Shown: positions 1,936 through 62,663 of the stretch, one piece after another
Layout of the letters: the number at the start of each line of letters is the position of its first letter
Position numbering within the stretch: the stretch's first letter is position 1
Origin: Saccharothrix ecbatanensis
GTDB lineage: Bacteria > Actinomycetota > Actinomycetes > Mycobacteriales > Pseudonocardiaceae
Direction: 5' to 3'
DNA length: 64,000 bases
Assembly (NCBI RefSeq): GCF_014205015.1
Contig: NZ_JACHMO010000001.1
Span: 6,324,001 to 6,388,000, forward strand
Position numbers and translations under genes: made by a program
Notes under the pieces: model-generated
Seen by the model: the letters and a program-made list of their open reading frames with translations, nothing else
Told to the model about the DNA's origin: nothing
Database searches by the model: none

Positions 1936-2940
1936 GTGCGTTGGTCGCGTTTCCGGTTGGGTGCTGTCGCACTGCTCGTCGCGGTGGCGGGTCTCCTGCC
2001 AGCCACCCCGGCGAGCGCCGCACCCGTCACGTGTGAGCAACTCCGCGTGCCCGTGACGGTGTTCGGCACGCAGCAGTCCATGCACGGCACGCTGTGCACG
2101 CCGGTGGGCGCGTCCACCGTTCAGGTGTTGATTCCCGGCGGCACGTACAACAGCTCGTACTGGGACATCTCGTACGCGCCGGCGACCCGGTCGTACCGGC
2201 AGGCGATGAACCACGCGGGCATCGCCACGCTCGCCGTCGACCGGCTCGGCACGGGGCGCAGTTCACGGCCGTTGAGCGCGTTGGTGACGGCGTCCACGCA
2301 GGCGAACGCGGTGCACCAGGTGATCCGGACGATCCGGCCGCGGTTCGACAAGGTGATCGTCGGTGGGCACTCGATCGGGTCGGCCATGGCGTTGATCGAG
2401 GCCGGTGTGCACCAGGACGTGGACGGGGTGCTGGTCACCGGGTTCACGCACCGGATGAACTTCCTCACCGTGGCGCCCGTGCTGGCAGGCATGATCCCGG
2501 CGGCGCTCGACCCGCAGCTGCGGGGGTACGGGCTGGACTTGGGTTACCTGACGACCGCGGCGGGCAAGCGTTATGGCGCTTTCCACGCGCCGGGGCGTGC
2601 GGTGGCGGAGGCGATCAGGCTCGACGAGGCGACCAAGGACGTGTTCGCGGCGTCGGAGGCGGTGGACACGGTCACGCTGAACAACGTGGTCATCCCGTTC
2701 ACCCGCTTGGTCGACGTGCCGGTGATGATCGTCGTCGGCGACGACACCCACTTCTGCGGCCCACCGCTGGGCAGTGACTGCACGTCCGCGGAGGCGCTGC
2801 GTGCGTCCGAGTCCCCGTTCTTCTCCCCCGCCGCCCGCCTGCACACGTACGTCCTGGACGGCTACGGCCACTCGATCAACTACGCCCCCAACGCCCCCGA
2901 CTACCACCGCGCCGTAGCCACCTGGACCCAAACCCTCTAA
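1936..2940 (+). CDS. Secreted alpha/beta hydrolase
   Basis: 334 residues starting at a GTG, with AGGAGG 10 nt upstream. An N-terminal Sec signal peptide (MRWSRFRLGAVALLVAVAGL) ends near an ASA-AP cleavage site at about residue 29. The nucleophile elbow GHSIG places the catalytic Ser at 146; GYGHS near the C-terminus gives the likely catalytic His312, and VGDD is a plausible acid region. Several cysteines suit an extracellular protein. Known family members are esterases, lipases or peptidases; the substrate cannot be told. Its 3-prime end faces the GH26 gene across repeat element 1. Confidence 0.85.
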   Translation: MRWSRFRLGAVALLVAVAGLLPATPASAAPVTCEQLRVPVTVFGTQQSMHGTLCTPVGASTVQVLIPGGTYNSSYWDISYAPATRSYRQAMNHAGIATLAVDRLGTGRSSRPLSALVTASTQANAVHQVIRTIRPRFDKVIVGGHSIGSAMALIEAGVHQDVDGVLVTGFTHRMNFLTVAPVLAGMIPAALDPQLRGYGLDLGYLTTAAGKRYGAFHAPGRAVAEAIRLDEATKDVFAASEAVDTVTLNNVVIPFTRLVDVPVMIVVGDDTHFCGPPLGSDCTSAEALRASESPFFSPAARLHTYVLDGYGHSINYAPNAPDYHRAVATWTQTL

Positions 2941-2951
2941 CCCCACCCCCC

Positions 2952-3111
2952 GTGAGTCCTACGTTCAGGACCCGTGAGTCCTACGTTCGGAACCCCCGAG
3001 TTCAACGCTCAGTACAAGATCGTTTGTTCTGAGCGTTGAATTCAGGGGTCCCAAACGTAGGACACGGTGGTCCTGAAGGTACGACTCGCGCGTTCTGAAC
3101 GTAGGACTCAC
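2952..3111. repeat. 22-bp phased palindromic repeat element, copy 1
   Basis: Cores TCCTACGTTC at 2957 and 2979 and TTCAACGCTC at 3001 are followed by inverted cores GAGCGTTGAA at 3031, AAACGTAGGA at 3053, GAAGGTACGA at 3075 and GAACGTAGGA at 3097. All steps within each arm are exactly 22 bp. The centre forms a perfect 12-bp stem (3001-3012 with 3029-3040) around a 16-nt loop. The whole element can fold as one long imperfect hairpin. It occupies the gap between the convergent hydrolase and GH26 genes and could act as a bidirectional terminator. Confidence 0.9.
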
Positions 3112-3130: not shown

Positions 3131-5185
3131 TTAGGCGGCGCGGATGTTGTCCAGGTAGAAGGTGCCGCTGACTACGGGGTTGGCTTCGACCTGGTTGATG
3201 AAGATGTTGAACTGGGACAGGTTCTTCAGGTCCTCCGGCGTGATCCGCCTGTGCGCGTTCCCGGTGTCCCAAGGCGCCGGACGCCAGTCCGCGAACGGGA
3301 TCGTGACCACCCCGCCGGTCGTCCCGGCGAGCGACGGGTAAGCCTCGTAAGCCACCCCACCGGCGTTCAGCTGCAACACCAGCTTGTGGTTCGACCCGTC
3401 ACCCTTCAGCCACACCGACAACCCGCTGTACGCCGACCAGTCGCCCTCGACGCGCTTTCCGATCCCGGTGTACGTCTGGAAGCTGAAGTCGTAGTCGAAC
3501 TTCAGCGCCTTGCCACCGTTCTCCGCCGCCAACGAGATCGTGTTCGTCCCGTACGGGCTGTACTCCGCAGCCAACGCGGTGTCGTCCACGTGACCCTCGA
3601 AGTCGTCCACCACACCCGGCGCCAACGGCGGCTTCGCGCCCAGGATCACCCGGTTCGACACCACCAGTGGCTCACCGGTCGACGCGGTCACCTTCAGCTG
3701 CGTGACCTTGTTGGTCAGGTTCTCCGCGCCGATGTCCCACGTGCCGGTGTAGTAACCCGAACGGCGGTCCAGCGTCAGCCGGTGCCTGGCCGGGTCGTCA
3801 CCCACGGTGAAGTAGACGGACTTGGCCTTGGCGTCGAGCAGCCGCACGCGGACCGTCGTGGTCGGCGTGACGACGCGCTCGCCGTCCGTCGGCGACACGA
3901 TGTGCATGAACGGCCCGTGCGCCTCGGCCCGAACCTTGCGCCCGTACACGTTCCCGAGGTCCAAAGCCTGGCTGAACACCGCGAACGGATCCGCGTGCAG
4001 CCGCTTCAGGTCCGGCAGCAACTCGTGCTCCGGCTCGGTCGCGGTCGCCGGGTACGGCAGGAAGAACTGCTCGGTGCCGAAGTTCACCCACGTCAGCATG
4101 AACGCGCTGCGACTGGCCCACGGGTCCGCCTTGATGGCGTTGAACATCGTGGTGAACCAGCTCAGGTTCCCGTTCTGCCCGTTGGGCTTCAGCGCGCCGC
4201 TGATCCCGTACTCGGTGAACGCCGACACCTTCCCCTTCTCCGCCGCGATGCGGGCGATCATGCCGAGGTCCGCGACGATGCCGTCCAGGAACTGCTGCGA
4301 CCCGTTGCTGCCGTCGTAGCTGTCGATGCCGAACACGTCGATGTAGTTGTCACCCGGGTACGTCCGCATGTAGACGTCGTCCACGCCGCCGTAGCCGCCG
4401 CCCGGCGAGTACGCGTACAGGAAGTTGTGCACGTCCTTCACGTCACGCAGGTACTCGACCGTGTACCGGAACAGCTCGACGTACTTCGCCGGTGACGCGT
4501 GCGCCGCGCCCCACCAGAACCACGAGCCGCTGTTCTCGTGGAACGGCCGGTAGATCATCGGGATCGGGTTGCCGTTGACGTCGTCGGCCTCGTGCGCGAG
4601 CCGGGCGACCCGGTCCAGGTAGGCGTTGAACTGCGCGTTGTGGTCGCCGCCGGGCAGGATGCGGGTGACGACATCGCCGTTGGTGTCGTAGAAGCTGCCG
4701 CCGGTGACGAAGTTGTCCATGTGCGACGCGAGCGTGTGCACGCCGCCGATCTCGTTGTGCGCGGTCTCGATCAGCTTGACCGTGGCCTGGAAGTTCTCCT
4801 CCGGCGCCGGGTCGCCGGGCGACGAGCCGTAGCCGAGGTGGCCGGTGTCCCAGCCGAACATCGCCGGGTGGTCGCCGACGCCCGCCTTGACGTCGGACTT
4901 CAGCCCGTCGGTCTCGGTGAACTCGTCCCAGGTGACGCCGAACTCGGTCGTCTGCTGGTGGCCGAACAGCACGCCCTTGCCCTGCTGCTCGCGCAGGTAG
5001 GAGTACAGGGACCTGGTCTCGGGGGTGGCGTCCGGGTCGGAGATCCGGACCGTCTCCCGCTTCGCCTTGCCGTCGGCGAACTCGGCCTCGGCGGGCGCGG
5101 CCGAAGCACCGACCGCACCGGCGCCCAGCAGGGCTGCGACGACGACCGCGACGGTCCCCCGTCTGGCTGGTGAACGTTTCCTCAT
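3131..5185 (-). CDS. Secreted GH26 endo-beta-1,4-mannanase with C-terminal CBM-like domain
   Basis: 684 residues. The N-terminal signal peptide (MRKRSPARRGTVAVVVAALL) ends near ASA-AP at about residue 30. The GH26 barrel covers roughly residues 50-400, with acid/base Glu217 in RPFHENSGSWFWWG and nucleophile Glu325 in FTEYGISG; this pair and the WFWWG motif identify endo-mannanases. An Ig-like module (about 430-510) and a beta-sandwich domain (about 525-684, VDDFEG...FYLDNIRAA, CBM11-like) follow. It would cut mannan or galactomannan chains outside the cell and supply the Opp-type importer encoded at 25-30 kb. The upstream region carries an inverted repeat that may be its operator. Confidence 0.93.
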   Translation of the reverse strand: MRKRSPARRGTVAVVVAALLGAGAVGASAAPAEAEFADGKAKRETVRISDPDATPETRSLYSYLREQQGKGVLFGHQQTTEFGVTWDEFTETDGLKSDVKAGVGDHPAMFGWDTGHLGYGSSPGDPAPEENFQATVKLIETAHNEIGGVHTLASHMDNFVTGGSFYDTNGDVVTRILPGGDHNAQFNAYLDRVARLAHEADDVNGNPIPMIYRPFHENSGSWFWWGAAHASPAKYVELFRYTVEYLRDVKDVHNFLYAYSPGGGYGGVDDVYMRTYPGDNYIDVFGIDSYDGSNGSQQFLDGIVADLGMIARIAAEKGKVSAFTEYGISGALKPNGQNGNLSWFTTMFNAIKADPWASRSAFMLTWVNFGTEQFFLPYPATATEPEHELLPDLKRLHADPFAVFSQALDLGNVYGRKVRAEAHGPFMHIVSPTDGERVVTPTTTVRVRLLDAKAKSVYFTVGDDPARHRLTLDRRSGYYTGTWDIGAENLTNKVTQLKVTASTGEPLVVSNRVILGAKPPLAPGVVDDFEGHVDDTALAAEYSPYGTNTISLAAENGGKALKFDYDFSFQTYTGIGKRVEGDWSAYSGLSVWLKGDGSNHKLVLQLNAGGVAYEAYPSLAGTTGGVVTIPFADWRPAPWDTGNAHRRITPEDLKNLSQFNIFINQVEANPVVSGTFYLDNIRAA

Positions 5186-10331: not shown

Positions 10332-10479
10332 GATCGACTGCCGCAAGACCGCGTAACGCACGGCGGCGGGCGTTACGGGTGCAAGGGCCGTCGCCGGCCG
10401 GGGGTCTCAACGATGAGACCACCACGCCGGCGGCGGCCCTTGTCGTTCGCACCCTGTGGCCACAGGCCGCGGCGTACGC

Positions 10480-10511
10480 GAACGTGGAACTCGCGGGACC
10501 TGAACGTTCGA
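10480..10511. repeat. Degenerate two-unit copy of the 22-bp phased repeat
   Basis: GAACGTGGAA at 10480 and GAACGTTCGA at 10502 are exactly 22 bp apart. Both resemble the inverted core GAACGTAGGA, and the linkers (ACTCGCGGGACCT, CACGCG) match those of the intact arrays. Unlike the other copies it lies between divergent genes. Confidence 0.55.
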
Positions 10512-10621
10512 CACGCGCTTGTGGCGTAACGGGTTGAGCTGTTCGGACGCACAAGCGCCGCGTAAGAGCTTCGTGGAGATACGGGGTTCACAGATTGTGC
10601 CCGGTTCGCTACCTTGAGGTC

Positions 10622-20675: not shown

Positions 20676-22829
20676 GTGGCAGACGTGACTCACCTGCGGG
20701 CAGCAGGTGTGAGCCTGGTGCTCGACTTCTCCGGAGGGACGCTTCCCCGGGTCCGCTATTGGGGCGCTGACCTGGGCGAACTTGATTCTGCCGCACTGGC
20801 GGCGGTGGTGCTGGCCCAGCAGCCGCACCCCATCGGCAACTCGGTGGACGGCCCGGTCGACGTGGCCGTGCTGCCCGAGCAGTCGGCCGGGTGGCTCGGC
20901 ACGCCGGGGATCATCGGCAACCGGGGCGGGCGGGACTTCTCCACCGCGTTCCGGGTCGTGTCGGTGGACGGCCCGGTCGACGGATCAGCGGTGTCGGTCG
21001 CCGGACCGGTGGTGCGCGCGGTCGACGAGGTCGCCGGGCTCGCGCTGGAACTGACCATCGAGCTGACCCCGTCCGGGCTGGTGCGGCAGCGGGCCGTGCT
21101 GTCCAACACCGGGTCGTCGGAGTTCACCGTGGACGCGGTGAACCTGACCCTGCCGGTGCCGGGGCAGGCGGTCGAGATCCTTGACTTCACCGGGCGGTGG
21201 ACGCGCGAACGCAGTCCTCAGCGCACACCGTGGACGCAGGGCCTGCGCGTGCGGGAGAACCGGACCGGTCGGACCGGCTACGACTCCGCCTACCTGTTCG
21301 CGGCGGGCACCTCGGGGTTCGACAACCGGTCGGGCGAGATCTGGGCGGTGCACACGGCCTGGTCGGGCAACCACCGGACGTTCGCCGAGAAGACGTACCA
21401 CTCGGTGTCGCTGCTCGGGTCGGGCGAGCTGCTGCTGTCCGGTGAGGTGGTGCTGGCCCCGGGCGAGTCGTACACGTCGCCGTGGCAGTACGCGTCGTAC
21501 GGGCACGGGCTGGACGAGGTGTCCGGGCGGTTCCACCAGTACCTGAGGTCTCGGCCGTCCCATCCCTCTTCGCCGCGCCCGGTCGTGGTGAACACGTGGG
21601 AGGCCGTGTACTTCGACCACGACCTGGGTCGGTTGAAGGCTCTGGCGGACGCCGCCGCGTCGATCGGCGGCGAGCGGTTCGTGCTGGACGACGGCTGGTT
21701 CGGCTCGCGTCGGGACGACCAGCGAGGGCTCGGCGACTGGTACGTGTCGGACGAGGTGTGGCCGGACGGGCTGAAGCCGTTGACGGACCACGTGACCGGG
21801 CTGGGGATGCAGTTCGGCATCTGGGTCGAGCCGGAGATGATCAACCCGGACTCGGACCTGGCTCGCGCGCACCCGGACTGGATCATGGCGGCGGGCGACC
21901 GGCTGCCCGGTGCGGCGCGGCACCAGCAGGTGCTGGACCTGGCGCGGCCCGAGGCGTTCGAGCACATCCTGGAGCGGCTGGACGACCTGCTGTCCACGTA
22001 CCCGGTGTCGTACCTGAAGTGGGACCACAACCGGGACTTGGTGGACGCGGGGCACCGGCCGACGGGGCGTGCGGGGGTGCACGGTCAGACGTTGGCCATC
22101 TACCGGCTGCTGGACGAGCTGCGGCGGCGTCATCCGGGGGTGGAGATCGAGTCGTGCTCGTCCGGTGGCGGGCGGGTGGACCTGGAGATCCTGGAGCGCA
22201 CGGACCGGGTGTGGGTGTCGGACTGCATCGACGCGCTGGAGCGGCAGTCGATGCAGCGGTGGACGAACGCTTTGATCCCGTTGGAGCTGATGGGGACGCA
22301 CGTGGGGTCGGGGACGTCGCACACGACGCACCGTCAGCACCCGATCGACTTCCGGGCCGGGACCGCGTTGTTCGGGCACTTCGGCATCGAGTGGGACCTG
22401 ACCAAGGCGTCGGCTTCGGATCTGGAGCGGCTGACGTCGTGGGTGGCCTTGTACAAGGAGTTGCGGCCTCTGCTGCACACCGGTGTGTCCGTGCACGGTG
22501 ACCACTCGGATCCGGCGATCAACGTGCACGGTGTGGTGGCGGAGGACGGGTCGGACGCCGTGTTCGCCATCGTCGCGCTGGCCACTTCCGAGTTCTACCC
22601 GCCGGGTGCTGTCCGTCTGCCCGGCCTGTCCCCGGACCGCACGTACCACGTCCGCCCCCTGCCGCCGGGTGACGTCCCGGATGGCAACGCGCACAACTGG
22701 GGCGTGCAGCTGCCGTGGTGGCAGCCGGAAGGCGTGACCCTCCCGGGCCGCGTCCTCACCACGGCCGGCGTCCAGGCCCCCGTCCTGCACCCGGAACGCC
22801 TGGTCCTCCTCCGAGCCACCGCCCTCTAA
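20676..22829 (+). CDS. GH36 alpha-galactosidase
   Basis: 717 residues without signal peptide. Nucleophile Asp450 in YLKWDHNRD and acid/base Asp516 in WVSDCIDALER; RFVLDDGWFGSRRDD and GIWVEPEMINPDSDL are standard GH36 motifs. The GTG start follows AGAGAGGAAG. It removes alpha-1,6-galactose from galactomannan oligosaccharides (and raffinose-type sugars) in the cytoplasm. It is divergent from the beta-mannosidase and convergent with a second GH36, with repeat element 2 in between. Confidence 0.95.
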   Translation: MADVTHLRAAGVSLVLDFSGGTLPRVRYWGADLGELDSAALAAVVLAQQPHPIGNSVDGPVDVAVLPEQSAGWLGTPGIIGNRGGRDFSTAFRVVSVDGPVDGSAVSVAGPVVRAVDEVAGLALELTIELTPSGLVRQRAVLSNTGSSEFTVDAVNLTLPVPGQAVEILDFTGRWTRERSPQRTPWTQGLRVRENRTGRTGYDSAYLFAAGTSGFDNRSGEIWAVHTAWSGNHRTFAEKTYHSVSLLGSGELLLSGEVVLAPGESYTSPWQYASYGHGLDEVSGRFHQYLRSRPSHPSSPRPVVVNTWEAVYFDHDLGRLKALADAAASIGGERFVLDDGWFGSRRDDQRGLGDWYVSDEVWPDGLKPLTDHVTGLGMQFGIWVEPEMINPDSDLARAHPDWIMAAGDRLPGAARHQQVLDLARPEAFEHILERLDDLLSTYPVSYLKWDHNRDLVDAGHRPTGRAGVHGQTLAIYRLLDELRRRHPGVEIESCSSGGGRVDLEILERTDRVWVSDCIDALERQSMQRWTNALIPLELMGTHVGSGTSHTTHRQHPIDFRAGTALFGHFGIEWDLTKASASDLERLTSWVALYKELRPLLHTGVSVHGDHSDPAINVHGVVAEDGSDAVFAIVALATSEFYPPGAVRLPGLSPDRTYHVRPLPPGDVPDGNAHNWGVQLPWWQPEGVTLPGRVLTTAGVQAPVLHPERLVLLRATAL

Positions 22830-22840
22830 CCACCCGCGTG

Positions 22841-23061
22841 TCGAACCCCCAGACCCCGCGTGTCGAACCTCCAGGACCCGTGAGTCCTACGTTCGCGACC
22901 CGTGAGTCCTACGTTCAGGACCCGTGAGTCCTACGTTCGGAACCCCCGAGTTCAACGCTCAGTACAAGATCGTTTGTTCTGAGCGTTGAATTCGGGGGTC
23001 CTGAACGTAGGACACGGTGGTTCTGAAGGTACGACTCGCGCGTTCTGAAGGTAGGACTCAC
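22841..23061. repeat. 22-bp phased palindromic repeat element, copy 2
   Basis: Left arm units start at 22841 and 22863 (TCGAACCYCC variants), 22885, 22907 and 22929 (TCCTACGTTC) and 22951 (TTCAACGCTC). Right arm units start at 22981 (GAGCGTTGAA), 23003, 23025 and 23047. Every step within an arm is 22 bp. The central stem-loop and most of the right arm are nearly identical to copy 1. The last unit overlaps the stop codon of the minus-strand GH36, which is the TGA of GCGTGAGTCC. Confidence 0.92.
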
Positions 23062-25145
23062 GCGGGGGTGGGGGTTAGGCGGACTACGACGGCTGCGGGG
23101 GCGTTGCCGTTGTGGGCGGCATGTAGTGATCCCTGGCCTGTGTCCCAGGTGAAGGTCCACGAGGGGGACGTCAGCGGGAACTGCGGGGATATCGCCATGG
23201 GCTGGCCCTGGAGGTGCGGCACGGGGAGGGTTACGTCGGCGGAGGCGCCTGGGAGGCGCCAGACCGTGATGTAGGTGGACTGGGCACGGAGCCCTTGGGC
23301 CACCCACGGGCCGGTGCGGTTGGTCAGGCCCAGCGGCCAAAACGGGATCGAGGTGGCGATCTCCGACCGTAGTCCCTTGTGGACGGACACCGCTTCGTGC
23401 ACGAGTGCGCGTTGCGCGGAGTCCATCAGGTCGACCCGTCCGGCCAGGTAGAGGCGTCCCAGAACACCCGTCGCCAAGGTGAAAGCAGCCTCGTCCGGTG
23501 ACATGCCGGGCTGCGCATAAGCCCAGTTACCGGCCTGCTCAGGCAGCACGGAAGCGGGCGCGGCGGCGGCGATCGGCGGGTACAGCAACGGGTTCTGCTG
23601 GTCCGAAGTGGACTGGATGTGGAGGCGCGACAGCATCGCGTAGTCCATCCGCATCGCACCCGACGCGCAGTTCTCCAACAGCAGGTCCGGGTGCCGGGCC
23701 AACACCCCGTCCAGCCACGCCAAGTGCGCGCGGTTGTGGCCGAGCAGGCCCTCACCGGGCGCGACGCCACCGACATCGGTCCCCGCACCGGGCATGATGT
23801 TGTAGTCCAGCTTGATGTACCCGACGCCGAACTCGCCGACCAGCCGGTCCACCACCTCGTCCACGTGCCGGACCGCCGCCGGGTGCCGCAGGTCCAGGTG
23901 GAACCGCCCGTGCTCACCCACCCGCGCACCCTGGCGCTGGAAGAACGCCTCCTCCGGCAACGACCGCGCCAACGCCGACCGCACGCCGACGACCTCCGGC
24001 TCCAGCCAGATCCCCGGCACCATCCCCCGTGCCCGGATCCGATCCGCGACCTCGCCGAACCCGCCGGGGAACCGCGTAGTGGACGGTCGCCACTCGCCGA
24101 CGCTGTCCCACCACTTGCCGTCCTCGTCGTACCACCCCGCGTCCACGCAGAAGTAGTCCGCGCCGACCGAAGCCGCCGCGTCGATCAACGGCAGCAGCTT
24201 CTCGGTGGTCGGGTCACCCATCAGGGTGTTCATGTAGTCGTTGAAGATCACCGGCAACCAGGGCGCACGCCGGTTCCGCAACGTCGCCCGCCGCTGCCGC
24301 GTCAACGCACCGAAAGCGTCGTCGACCCCTCCGGCGACGACGGCCACGGATACCGGCACGGTCGTGAACCCCGCACCGGAGGACACCACGCGCGACCACT
24401 GGTGCTCGGCATCCGTAGGCCCCAGGACCGCCACGTACGCACCCGCGACCGTCTCCCCGACCTCCCAGTGCCACGCGCCGTTGTGCTCGATCTGCCAAGC
24501 CATGGCCCAGCTGTCGTCCCGCGCCACCAGAACACCGCAAGGCAGGTGCTCACCGGTAGACCACGAGCTCCGGGACGTCAACGCGAACCGGCTCCGCGAC
24601 GCGTGGTGGTGCACCGTCGGGTCCATGGCCACCAGACCCGCCTCGCGCAACGGCGTGCGGTGCCAGCGCGACTCGGCGACCCAGTCCGAGTCACCGTGCA
24701 CGAGGTCCACCTCGTCCACCGAACGGTCCGCGTCCACCAGGAACGCCCCGGTGGACAACGATGTCACCGCCTGGAGGCACACCGAACCAGGGCCCTCGAC
24801 GTCGACCTCGGTCCACGTCCGCACCGCGGGCACCCCGGCGACACCCTGGAACACGGACGACACCACGAGCCCGCTCACCGGGTCGTGCTGCACGACCCGC
24901 AGCTCGTCGGCGGACGCCACATGCGTGCGATACCGCAGCCGCGCGCCGATCATGGTGTCCGCGTAACGGTGGCTACCGGGGAACCTCCCGTGGCCGAGCG
25001 CCTGCACCTCGACCAGCGGCACCCCGATCCCGGCAGAAAGCCCCGAAGAAGGCCCGGAAGGCCGCAACGAGAGCAGTCGCACCGGCCGGTCGTCCGACAC
25101 GTCCAACAGCAGCCGAATCGCGCCCGTGGACCAGCTGACCGTCAT
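23058..25145 (-). CDS. Second GH36-family alpha-galactosidase
   Basis: 695 residues, cytoplasmic. Nucleophile Asp447 in YIKLDYNIMPG and acid/base Asp515 in STSDQQN; DAGWYDEDGKWWDSVGEW and GIWLEPEVVG support GH36. It is divergent in sequence from the 20.7-kb enzyme (CASGAMRMDY instead of CSSGGGRVDL), so a different linkage or oligosaccharide size preference is likely. Its ATG overlaps the stop of the transporter ATPase (ATGA), making it the last gene of the importer operon. That physical link argues that the imported sugar carries alpha-galactose. Confidence 0.9.
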   Translation of the reverse strand: MTVSWSTGAIRLLLDVSDDRPVRLLSLRPSGPSSGLSAGIGVPLVEVQALGHGRFPGSHRYADTMIGARLRYRTHVASADELRVVQHDPVSGLVVSSVFQGVAGVPAVRTWTEVDVEGPGSVCLQAVTSLSTGAFLVDADRSVDEVDLVHGDSDWVAESRWHRTPLREAGLVAMDPTVHHHASRSRFALTSRSSWSTGEHLPCGVLVARDDSWAMAWQIEHNGAWHWEVGETVAGAYVAVLGPTDAEHQWSRVVSSGAGFTTVPVSVAVVAGGVDDAFGALTRQRRATLRNRRAPWLPVIFNDYMNTLMGDPTTEKLLPLIDAAASVGADYFCVDAGWYDEDGKWWDSVGEWRPSTTRFPGGFGEVADRIRARGMVPGIWLEPEVVGVRSALARSLPEEAFFQRQGARVGEHGRFHLDLRHPAAVRHVDEVVDRLVGEFGVGYIKLDYNIMPGAGTDVGGVAPGEGLLGHNRAHLAWLDGVLARHPDLLLENCASGAMRMDYAMLSRLHIQSTSDQQNPLLYPPIAAAAPASVLPEQAGNWAYAQPGMSPDEAAFTLATGVLGRLYLAGRVDLMDSAQRALVHEAVSVHKGLRSEIATSIPFWPLGLTNRTGPWVAQGLRAQSTYITVWRLPGASADVTLPVPHLQGQPMAISPQFPLTSPSWTFTWDTGQGSLHAAHNGNAPAAVVVRLTPTPA

Positions 25146-59830: not shown

Positions 59831-61453
<1,623 letters not shown>

Positions 61454-61483: not shown

Positions 61484-61515
61484 CGGGCCCTGCGGGCATT
61501 CCCCCGCAGGGCCCG
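61484..61515 (+). terminator. Chitinase terminator hairpin
   Basis: CGGGCCCTGCGGG (61484-61496) pairs perfectly with CCCGCAGGGCCCG (61503-61515), loop CATTCC. It lies 30 bp after the chitinase stop. Confidence 0.9.
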
Positions 61516-61525
61516 CCGCCGTCCC

Positions 61526-61676
61526 GAACGTTGAATTCACCCGTCCCGAACGTAGGACTCACGCGTTCTGAACGTAGGACTCACGCGGTGGTCGCGTGAG
61601 TCCTACGTTCGCGTCGCGTGAGTCCTACGTTCGGAACAGGCGTGTCCTACGTTCAGGACCCCCGAATTCAACGCTC
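61526..61676. repeat. 22-bp phased palindromic repeat element, copy 3 (inside-out)
   Basis: Inverted cores at 61526 (GAACGTTGAA), 61548 and 61570 (GAACGTAGGA) come first, then direct cores at 61601, 61623 and 61645 (TCCTACGTTC) and 61667 (TTCAACGCTC). Steps are 22 bp. The order of orientations is opposite to copies 1 and 2. The last core overlaps the stop codon of the RmlB-like gene. It lies between convergent genes. Confidence 0.92.
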
Positions 61677-62663
61677 GGGTGACGGGGTCCAGGACGTTTC
61701 GGAGACCGGGCTGCGGTCGCGCAGGGGTTCCCACCAGGAGCGATTGTCGGCGTACCAGCGGATGGTGTCGCGGACGCCGGTGGCGAAGTCCACCCGCGGC
61801 TCCCAGCCGAGCTCACGGCGGATCTTGGTCGAGTCGAGCAGGTAACGGCGGTCGTGCCCCGGACGGTCCGGCACGGTGGCCTTGCGCGACGACGGCAGGC
61901 CCAGCTCGTCCAGCACCAGGTCCGCGATCTCCTCGACGCTCGCCTCCACCCCCGTCCCCACGTGGTACGTCTCCCCGACCCGCCCACGCAGCAGCACGGC
62001 CTCGATCGCCCGGCAGTGGTCGAGCACGTGGATCCACTCGCGGCGGTTGTCCTTCGACGCGTAGACCGGCAGGTCGCCCCCGTCCAACGCCCGCGTCGTG
62101 AACAGCGGCAGCACCTTCTCCGGGAACTGGTTCGGCCCGTAGTTGTTCGCGCAGTTCGTGATCGTCACCGGCAGCCCGAACGTCTCGTGGTACGCCCGCA
62201 CCGCGTGGTCCGCCCCTGCCTTGCTCGCGTTGTACGGCGTCCGCGGCCGGTACGGCGACTCCTCCGTGAACGCCGACACAGCGTCCAACGCCAGGTCCCC
62301 GTACACCTCGCACGTCGAGATGTGGTGGAACCGCCGCACCCCCGCCCGCCGCGCCGCCTCCAGCAACGCCTGCGTGCCCATCACGTTGGTCCGGAAGAAC
62401 CGGGTCGGGTCCAGCACCGCCAGGCTGTTGTGCGACTCGGCCGCGAAGTTCACCACCACGTCGATCCCGCTCAGGTCGAACGACGCGATGTCGCCGTGCA
62501 CGAACGTGATCCGGTCCCGCACGTCGGCGAGGTTCGTCTCCGTCCCCGCGTACGTCAGCGCGTCCAGCGCCACCACCCGATCGGAGGGATGCTCCCGCAC
62601 CCAGTGACGCGTGAAGTGCGACCCGATGAACCCGGCCGCGCCGGTCACGAGAACTGATGTCAT
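61668..62663 (-). CDS. RmlB-like dTDP-glucose 4,6-dehydratase homologue
   Basis: 331 residues. GxxGxxG loop VTGAAGFIGSH, NFAAESHNSL, YNASKAGADHAVRAYHETFG (YxxxK) and NCANNYGPNQFPEKVLPLF are RmlB motifs. The catalytic TDE triplet is replaced by TCE (STCEVYGD), losing the Asp acid. No sugar-nucleotide partner genes are near. It may act on a different nucleotide sugar or carry out only part of the reaction. Confidence 0.85.
   Translation of the reverse strand: MTSVLVTGAAGFIGSHFTRHWVREHPSDRVVALDALTYAGTETNLADVRDRITFVHGDIASFDLSGIDVVVNFAAESHNSLAVLDPTRFFRTNVMGTQALLEAARRAGVRRFHHISTCEVYGDLALDAVSAFTEESPYRPRTPYNASKAGADHAVRAYHETFGLPVTITNCANNYGPNQFPEKVLPLFTTRALDGGDLPVYASKDNRREWIHVLDHCRAIEAVLLRGRVGETYHVGTGVEASVEEIADLVLDELGLPSSRKATVPDRPGHDRRYLLDSTKIRRELGWEPRVDFATGVRDTIRWYADNRSWWEPLRDRSPVSETSWTPSPER

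Follow-up and report, generated by a model that had tools for sequence, protein, structure and literature searches.

Two convergent genes of Saccharothrix ecbatanensis, both encoding a Melibiase domain (20805-25022), are separated by a repeat that runs first in one orientation and then in the other. The question raised by this locus is whether such a repeat is an RNA hairpin, a dispersed sequence devoid of host function, or a row of sites in DNA. We addressed it in the window (i.e., the whole 64,000-nucleotide stretch of DNA that was analyzed), in its source genome (G000), and in the genomes of relatives, which bear the other G-numbers. An initial annotation had described three copies, each with a 10-bp core that recurs at 22-bp intervals, first in one direction and then as its reverse complement (TCCTACGTTC; variants, TTCAACGCTC and TCGAACCYCC), and this organization was seen in all three. 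The copies were also said to lie between convergent genes, with near-identical centers in copies 1 and 2, swapped orientations in copy 3, and stop codons overlapped by two of them. All of these features were recovered: our own gene caller agreed on the convergent arrangement, the center AGTACAAGATCGTTTGTTCT is common to copies 1 and 2, copy 3 comprises three reverse units followed by four forward units, and the ends of minus-strand genes are overlapped by the outermost right unit of copy 2 (4 bp) and by the last forward unit of copy 3 (16 bp). Copy 1 ends 11 and 19 bp away from the two flanking stops.

The array unit is directional and spans 22 bp, of which 15 bp form the core and 7 bp a linker that is constant in length but free in sequence, and arrays are often inverted across a short center. 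In Saccharothrix, the core of about 15 bp reads GNGAGTYSWACGYTC. Unit types follow a polar order from the outermost C (GTGTCGAACCTCCAG) through A (GTGAGTCCTACGTTC, with the further form GTGTCCTACGTTC) or E (GAGTCGTACCTTC) to the innermost B (CGARTTCAACGCTC). Array extents were set with a 22-bp unit matrix, which favors conserved positions, and gene calls came from our own simple codon-usage caller rather than from an annotation.

Table 1. Array copies, their parts, and the flanking genes in the window
Feature	Position	Strand	Composition or product	Basis
Copy 1, whole	2952-3111		3 units + 6-bp center + 4 units	Unit matrix
Copy 1, left arm	2952..3017	+	Three units, A-A-B	
Copy 1, center	3018..3023	.	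6 bp, GATCGT	
Copy 1, right arm	3024..3111	-	Four units, B'-A'-E'-A'	
Gene left of copy 1	2047..2940	+	Alpha/beta hydrolase	Own gene caller, Pfam
Gene right of copy 1	3131..5185	-	GH26 with CBM_11	Own gene caller, Pfam
Copy 2, whole	22836-23061		6 forward units + 6-bp center + 4 reverse units	Unit matrix
Copy 2, left arm	22836..22967	+	Six 22-bp units, C-C-A-A-A-B from outside to inside	Sequence and unit matrix
Copy 2, center	22968..22973	.	6 bp, GATCGT	
Copy 2, right arm	22974..23061	-	Four 22-bp units, B'-A'-E'-A'	
Gene left of copy 2	20805..22829	+	Melibiase/GH36 domains	Own gene caller, Pfam
Gene right of copy 2	23058..25022	-	Melibiase domain	Own gene caller, Pfam
Copy 3, whole	61519-61683		3 reverse units + 11-bp center + 4 forward units	Unit matrix; flipped form
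Copy 3, reverse units	61519..61584	-	Three, B'-A'-A'	
Copy 3, center	61585..61595	.	11 bp	
Copy 3, forward units	61596..61683	+	Four, A-A-A-B	
Gene left of copy 3	59861..61453	+	GH18 with CBM_2	Own gene caller, Pfam
Gene right of copy 3	61668..62648	-	Sugar-nucleotide dehydratase/epimerase family	Own gene caller, Pfam

Among 69 distinct arrays of G000, 35 are head-to-head, with a center mostly of 6 to 7 bp, 6 are flipped, and 28 are one-way. Elsewhere in the window, a weak two-unit match between divergent genes (10473-10516) has no partner in the matching stretch of G008. A GC-rich hairpin separate from the array was also noted at 61485-61520, with the plus-strand gene on one side and copy 3 on the other. 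It has similar counterparts in G008 and G001; G011 also has one, next to the orthologue of the minus-strand gene, where the array is absent.

The repeat in the window is not due to chance. When one mismatch at most was allowed, the 10-mer was found 14 times, compared to a mean of 2.2 after shuffling, and 14 or more were reached in 0 of 100 shuffles. In the 9.69-Mb G000 genome, the exact 15-mer GTGAGTCCTACGTTC occurs 273 times, against 0 for the reversed control. A first core scan of 41 stretches placed 220 of 231 same-strand neighbors less than 80 bp apart at a spacing of 22 bp, the exceptions being 44 (nine cases), 42 (one), and 24 bp (one). Loss of the 22-bp phase in other copies, which the initial annotation had named as evidence against a functional role, did not occur: across 212 arrays, 917 of 939 same-strand neighbors are spaced by exactly 22 bp, and 964 units lie inside arrays compared to 0 in reversed sequence. 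In a larger set with further genera, 1127 of 1163 steps measure 21 or 22 bp (56 and 1071, respectively). A motif-free lag scan of intergenic DNA likewise peaked at 22 in G000, G008, G017, and G018 and at 21 in G302 and G204. The proposed 22-bp period holds for the arrays of this genus but not for some other genera, where it is 21 bp. Center lengths may be quantized in 11-bp steps (6/7, 16/17, and 28 bp), a suggestive pattern with exceptions; changes in center length resemble steps of about 11 bp, yet 6, 7, and 13 occur too. Along the G000 chromosome, 20 of the 15-mers fall at 0.69 to 4.5 Mb and 253 elsewhere, a density about eightfold higher outside that region. With DnaA at 7.44 Mb, the arrays favor the origin half. 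Conserved core genes of the family are located near oriC according to the available part of PMC3469384, and this bias could thus reflect gene conservation.

We then examined where the arrays lie relative to genes, counting one array per orthologous locus over several genomes (n = 213). Nor are the copies scattered without preference for convergent ends, the second outcome that the initial annotation had named against a functional role: 111 arrays are in convergent gaps, 91 in tandem gaps, 8 in divergent gaps, and 3 inside called genes, whereas the gaps of at least 60 bp in the fetched stretches of G000 number 80 convergent, 279 tandem, and 142 divergent. The convergent excess and the divergent deficit have Fisher P values of 1e-22 and 5e-16, respectively, with a baseline drawn from one genome and arrays drawn from several. 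In G000 alone, 25 arrays are convergent, 31 tandem, 4 divergent, and 0 inside genes. The placement between convergent genes that had been proposed from the window is hence a preference and not a rule, as the many tandem arrays (91/213) indicate. Over 313 gene 3' ends, the median distance from stop codon to array is 6 bp, and it is 30 bp or less at 219 of them; gene starts are more distant (median, 74 bp; n = 39, G000). Overlaps of exact size recur, namely, 4 bp at 28 gene ends and 9 bp at 16, and, from a reading of the sequence, these place TGA within the GTGAG or GTTGAA of the outer unit. In tandem gaps, one-way arrays have the sense orientation to the gene in 30 cases and the antisense orientation in 16 (P = 0.054). 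This orientation is not fixed, which suits a DNA signal rather than an RNA signal.

Comparison of orthologous loci indicates that the arrays persist in place. In unselected stretches (204 kb of G000 versus 169 kb of G008), eight arrays of at least three units were found, and all were co-located whichever genome was taken as the reference, which argues against recent movement there. Flank identity is at least 0.82 at six of these and about 0.70 at two (one flank rearranged). One form is retained at 42 of 49 orthologous loci, a sample biased to matches in both genomes since most loci were fetched by matches. One-way arrays remain one-way in orthologues, and in 52 of 65 orthologous pairs, the difference in array length is, to within 1 bp, a multiple of 22. 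The history of individual copies is more varied. The right-hand gene of copy 2 has orthologues of at least 79% identity in ten other genomes, the array being found in G008 only; at eight of the nine array-free orthologues, another convergent gene is located 3 to 11 bp away. Copy 2 is thus either younger or was lost elsewhere. Copy 3 is present in G000, G008, and G001 and absent in G019, G011, G015, and G009, and a diverged 22-bp array adjoins the orthologue of the copy 3 gene in G018. At another locus (L180:10062-13267), about 3.2 kb of G000 directly adjoining an array is unmatched in the aligned locus of G008 (L095), and the array edge thus coincides with gene gain or loss.

Within units, the core is more conserved than the linker (14.5% versus 33.5% mismatch over 338 orthologous unit pairs), with mismatches of 1% or less at unit positions 3, 6, 10, 11, and 15. 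Between G000 and G008, 52 array-free intergenic stretches (7348 bp) contain 849 substitutions and 54 indels, whereas 26 array pairs contain 589 substitutions and two odd within-arm gaps (2 and 80 bp). At the neighboring intergenic rate, about 37 array indels were expected and about 20-fold fewer were seen; the corresponding Poisson P value, about 4e-14, overstates the case where whole units are exchanged. Divergence between the two genomes is 30% in linkers, 12.7% in cores, and 11.6% (849/7348) in array-free intergenic DNA, and unit types are swapped between orthologues. The excess in linkers over array-free DNA and these swaps together indicate that whole-unit turnover occurs, and part of the indel deficit may stem from it, as copying of whole units preserves the phase by itself. 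Core divergence is not below that of array-free DNA, and it is the difference from the linker within one and the same unit that argues for selection on the core. Concerted evolution, which we also considered, was unsupported for G000 and G008: orthologous units (8.5% core and 19.8% linker divergence; 39 pairs) are closer than paralogous ones (9 to 11% and 30 to 38%, respectively).

The arrays are unevenly distributed in the genus. The exact 15-mer was detected in 12 of 98 other relatives, 11 of which are Saccharothrix, with 1 to 390 occurrences per genome; the maximum was in G008, the richest genome tested. A degenerate core, GWGAGTCSWACGYTC, yielded 2 to 419 matches in 13 of the 24 other Saccharothrix genomes and none in 11. 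Lag scans of 100 kb each returned zero windows at 21 or 22 in G009 and G006 of the same genus, and two lag-21 windows in G004 and one in G016, with none at 22; those of G004 correspond to an unrelated GC-rich repeat. That these four genomes lack a 21/22-bp signal apart from a few lag-21 windows argues that the system is dispensable in the genus. As a query, copy 2 had no match among plasmids or phages, and an origin from either was therefore rejected.

One explanation for such a pattern is a passive repeat that spread somehow, in the manner of REP/BIME elements, and survives at gene 3' ends because it is harmless there, with no function for the host. It accounts for the patchiness in the genus, for the avoidance of genes and divergent gaps, which fits selection against damage, and for 17 near-identical asymmetric copies of a master element (A-E-A-B, a 6-bp center, and B'-A'-A'; window copies 1 and 2 are among them) that sit in both orientations between unrelated flanks. 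REPs likewise prefer unidirectional and convergent gaps, as stated in the available part of PMC3733652. We nevertheless consider it unlikely, since the arrays of at least three units are all co-located in G000 and G008 (one two-unit G000 match lacks a partner) and since phase and core are retained after long divergence. Marks of transposition are also missing. Repeats of at least 4 bp at the edges of the 69 arrays, taken as target-site duplications, were found in at most 2 arrays at any offset (shuffled maximum mean, 1.0), and the Y1 transposase family PF01797, present in 5 of 25 genomes of the genus, is absent from G008, the genome with the most copies. The genus has seven Y1 matches, and the loci fetched around them contained no array units. 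Mobility through a RAYT-like Y1 enzyme is not supported, and a RAYT/REP origin was rejected on these grounds, as was a transposon or MITE with fixed termini, given the variable unit number and the lack of target-site duplication.

Alternatively, the inverted arms between convergent genes could act as RNA, forming a hairpin that serves as a U-poor bidirectional terminator or a 3'-end stabilizer. Copy 2 folds very stably as RNA (-155.5 kcal/mol; z, -11.6; equal stability in 0 of 200 shuffles), arrays begin a few bases past the stop, 47 of 71 two-way head-to-head arrays are convergent, and the inner inverted cores are near-perfect in G054. Long, stable, U-poor terminators are reported for Streptomyces in the available part of PMC12207403. 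However, a single arm is present in 97 of 210 typed arrays, and the six one-way arrays that were folded gave z values of -2.34 to +0.23. One-way arrays are not decayed forms (score, 30.0, versus 28.4 for two-way arrays), and the preference of two-way over one-way arrays for convergent gaps is not significant (P = 0.15). Pooled over species, arms pair better than shuffled arms, but this excess is confounded by species, as units are particular to each. Within species, the arms in G000 (34 arrays), compared over two or three units, pair no better than shuffled ones, with a slight lean only at the innermost unit (28/500), and those of G008 pair worse, the observed value being reached by 498 to 500 of 500 shuffles; small sets lean toward pairing in some tests (G020, n = 10; G017, n = 4; flipped G000 arrays, n = 6). 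No co-variation between arms was seen at the variable base of the innermost unit (16 matched and 19 unmatched). There is no U tract, and 0 terminator-like sites were detected at 22000-24000, which lowers but does not remove the case for a terminator, as U-poor forms exist in Streptomyces. At copy 3, moreover, a GC hairpin distinct from the array lies upstream of it.

For these reasons, an RNA hairpin also seems an improbable explanation, and the palindrome that the initial annotation took as the defining feature was not supported as such, with 97 of 210 typed arrays being one-directional and arms lacking consistent co-variation within species. The constrained object is most likely a row of sites in DNA, and we conclude that the hairpin is largely a by-product of two rows placed face to face. 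A smaller hairpin within the unit (GTCC..GGAC versus GTTC..GAAC) was rejected as well, as column profiles inspected by eye revealed no co-variation. A search of the window against Rfam 15 returned 0 matches at the gathering score; sub-threshold matches to miRNA precursors at 22926-23015 are generic for a hairpin.

A row of DNA sites could also be read by a topoisomerase. The arrays would then be preferred gyrase sites that relax positive supercoils after genes, like enterobacterial BIME-2. Such a role suits their location between converging genes and the length of two-way arrays, often 140 to 290 bp and close to the length wrapped by gyrase. It is nonetheless quite improbable: gyrase is a universal enzyme of weak sequence specificity, whereas the arrays are patchy in the genus and have a sharply defined core, and three-unit one-way arrays measure only 66 bp. 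The parallel with REPs, which bind gyrase and sit where supercoils accumulate according to the available part of PMC1525189, may be taken in its favor.

Of the three roles initially proposed (terminator, 3' RNA structure, and binding array for a protein), the binding array would fit best. Our preferred reading, still tentative, is that proteins bind to the arrays, whose sites are in helical phase, and that the arrays thereby mark or insulate the ends of genes. Every step, 22 bp long (21 bp in certain genera), would offer one directional site, and, with two helical turns per step, all sites would face the same side of the DNA. From the sites, their phase, their place, and their conservation, which are observed directly, we infer cooperative binding by a sequence-specific protein, which would coat the DNA immediately past the stop codon, once in one-way arrays or as two facing arrays between convergent genes. 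The coated stretch could form a boundary at the end of the transcription unit, either by stopping read-through or by holding the DNA against the twist generated by converging polymerases. The arrays have the features that a cooperative protein would need, namely, a unit of two helical turns, a core that is both sharp and directional, a linker constrained in length but not in sequence, and a placement independent of orientation.

At bacterial gene ends, and above all at convergent ones, polymerases must be stopped and supercoils shed, and GC-rich actinomycetes often lack strong U tracts. The fixed-phase arrays would provide a defined element that can be deleted and that exists naturally in one-way, two-way, and flipped versions, so that one could test whether transcription units are ended or insulated by proteins instead of RNA hairpins. 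They would also mark a putative DNA-binding protein, with carriers and noncarriers available for comparison within a single genus.

Several known systems share features with the arrays. Iterons, found in plasmid origins and partition centromeres, are directional repeats of about two helical turns that are bound cooperatively by protein. The arrays resemble them in having directional repeats with a fixed helical period, protein binding being putative here, but differ in that well over a hundred chromosomal arrays are located at gene 3' ends instead of one array at an origin; Pfam searches of the six genes flanking the window copies revealed no replication or partition gene. The ends of Tn7 also carry 22-bp sites, bound by TnsB, in inverted arms, and Tn7 inserts near a gene 3' end. 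Both the sites and the location are comparable in our arrays, which differ by a varying number of units per arm, an unfixed outer edge, and the absence of cargo and target-site duplication. REP/BIME elements are, according to the available parts of PMC3733652 and PMC1525189, short species-specific repeats in hundreds of copies and both orientations, located downstream of genes and between convergent genes, as the arrays are. A REP, however, is an imperfect palindrome of 20 to 40 bp with a GTAG or CGTC tag, whereas the array unit is directional and, on inspection of the unit matrix, its core has no palindromic symmetry; the strict 21/22-bp head-to-tail phase, the ordered unit types, and the lack of a Y1 (RAYT) gene in the richest genome further set the arrays apart. 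The family is thus REP-like in place but different in build and is not a REP member. Like the U-poor terminators of Streptomyces, as presented in the available part of PMC12207403, the arrays offer long GC-rich hairpin potential past the stop codon, but nearly half of the typed ones lack a second arm, stems do not co-vary consistently, and the sequence is common to many loci. Prokaryotic satellites also consist of tandem units dispersed through intergenic DNA (PMC6749651, in the part available), and the arrays differ from them in being short, in the polar order of their unit types, in occurring in either orientation, and in their constant position at gene ends. The available part of that survey lists Amycolatopsis mediterranei with 23 satellites and describes no such family, and no published description of the array family was found in the open-access literature.

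Related cores, with a period of 21 or 22 bp, occur in other genera. NCBI places Saccharothrix in the Pseudonocardiaceae, the family that we take our 297-genome sample to represent. In this sample, the degenerate core had at least one match in 29 genomes, with controls at or near 0. A second core, GHGAGTTVTGCGYTC, was detected in 71 of the 297 genomes and in 23 of 46 genera, in many cases with no more than one or two matches and with maxima of 198 in G302 and 181 in G018; single core matches are not equivalent to arrays. Visual inspection or lag scans revealed phased arrays in G054, G279, G302, G204, G284, G291, and G018. These observations raise the more speculative possibility of a boundary system of the Pseudonocardiaceae in which a sequence-specific architectural protein would polymerize on helically phased 21/22-bp arrays at transcription-unit ends, one-way or face to face, and insulate convergent genes of the origin-proximal half, its site drifting by genus while place and phase persist. 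A GC-rich 21-bp minisatellite between convergent genes in G017 (L405:14780-14960) is unrelated to the arrays. In G054 (L317-L325), which belongs to another genus, the flipped form predominates, an inner pair of inverted cores is spaced 7 bp apart, the center varies, and up to eight units are present on one side versus two on the other. G302 has, in three places (L388, L389, and L391), a master element specific to its genus that combines 21-bp units with a long, conserved center.
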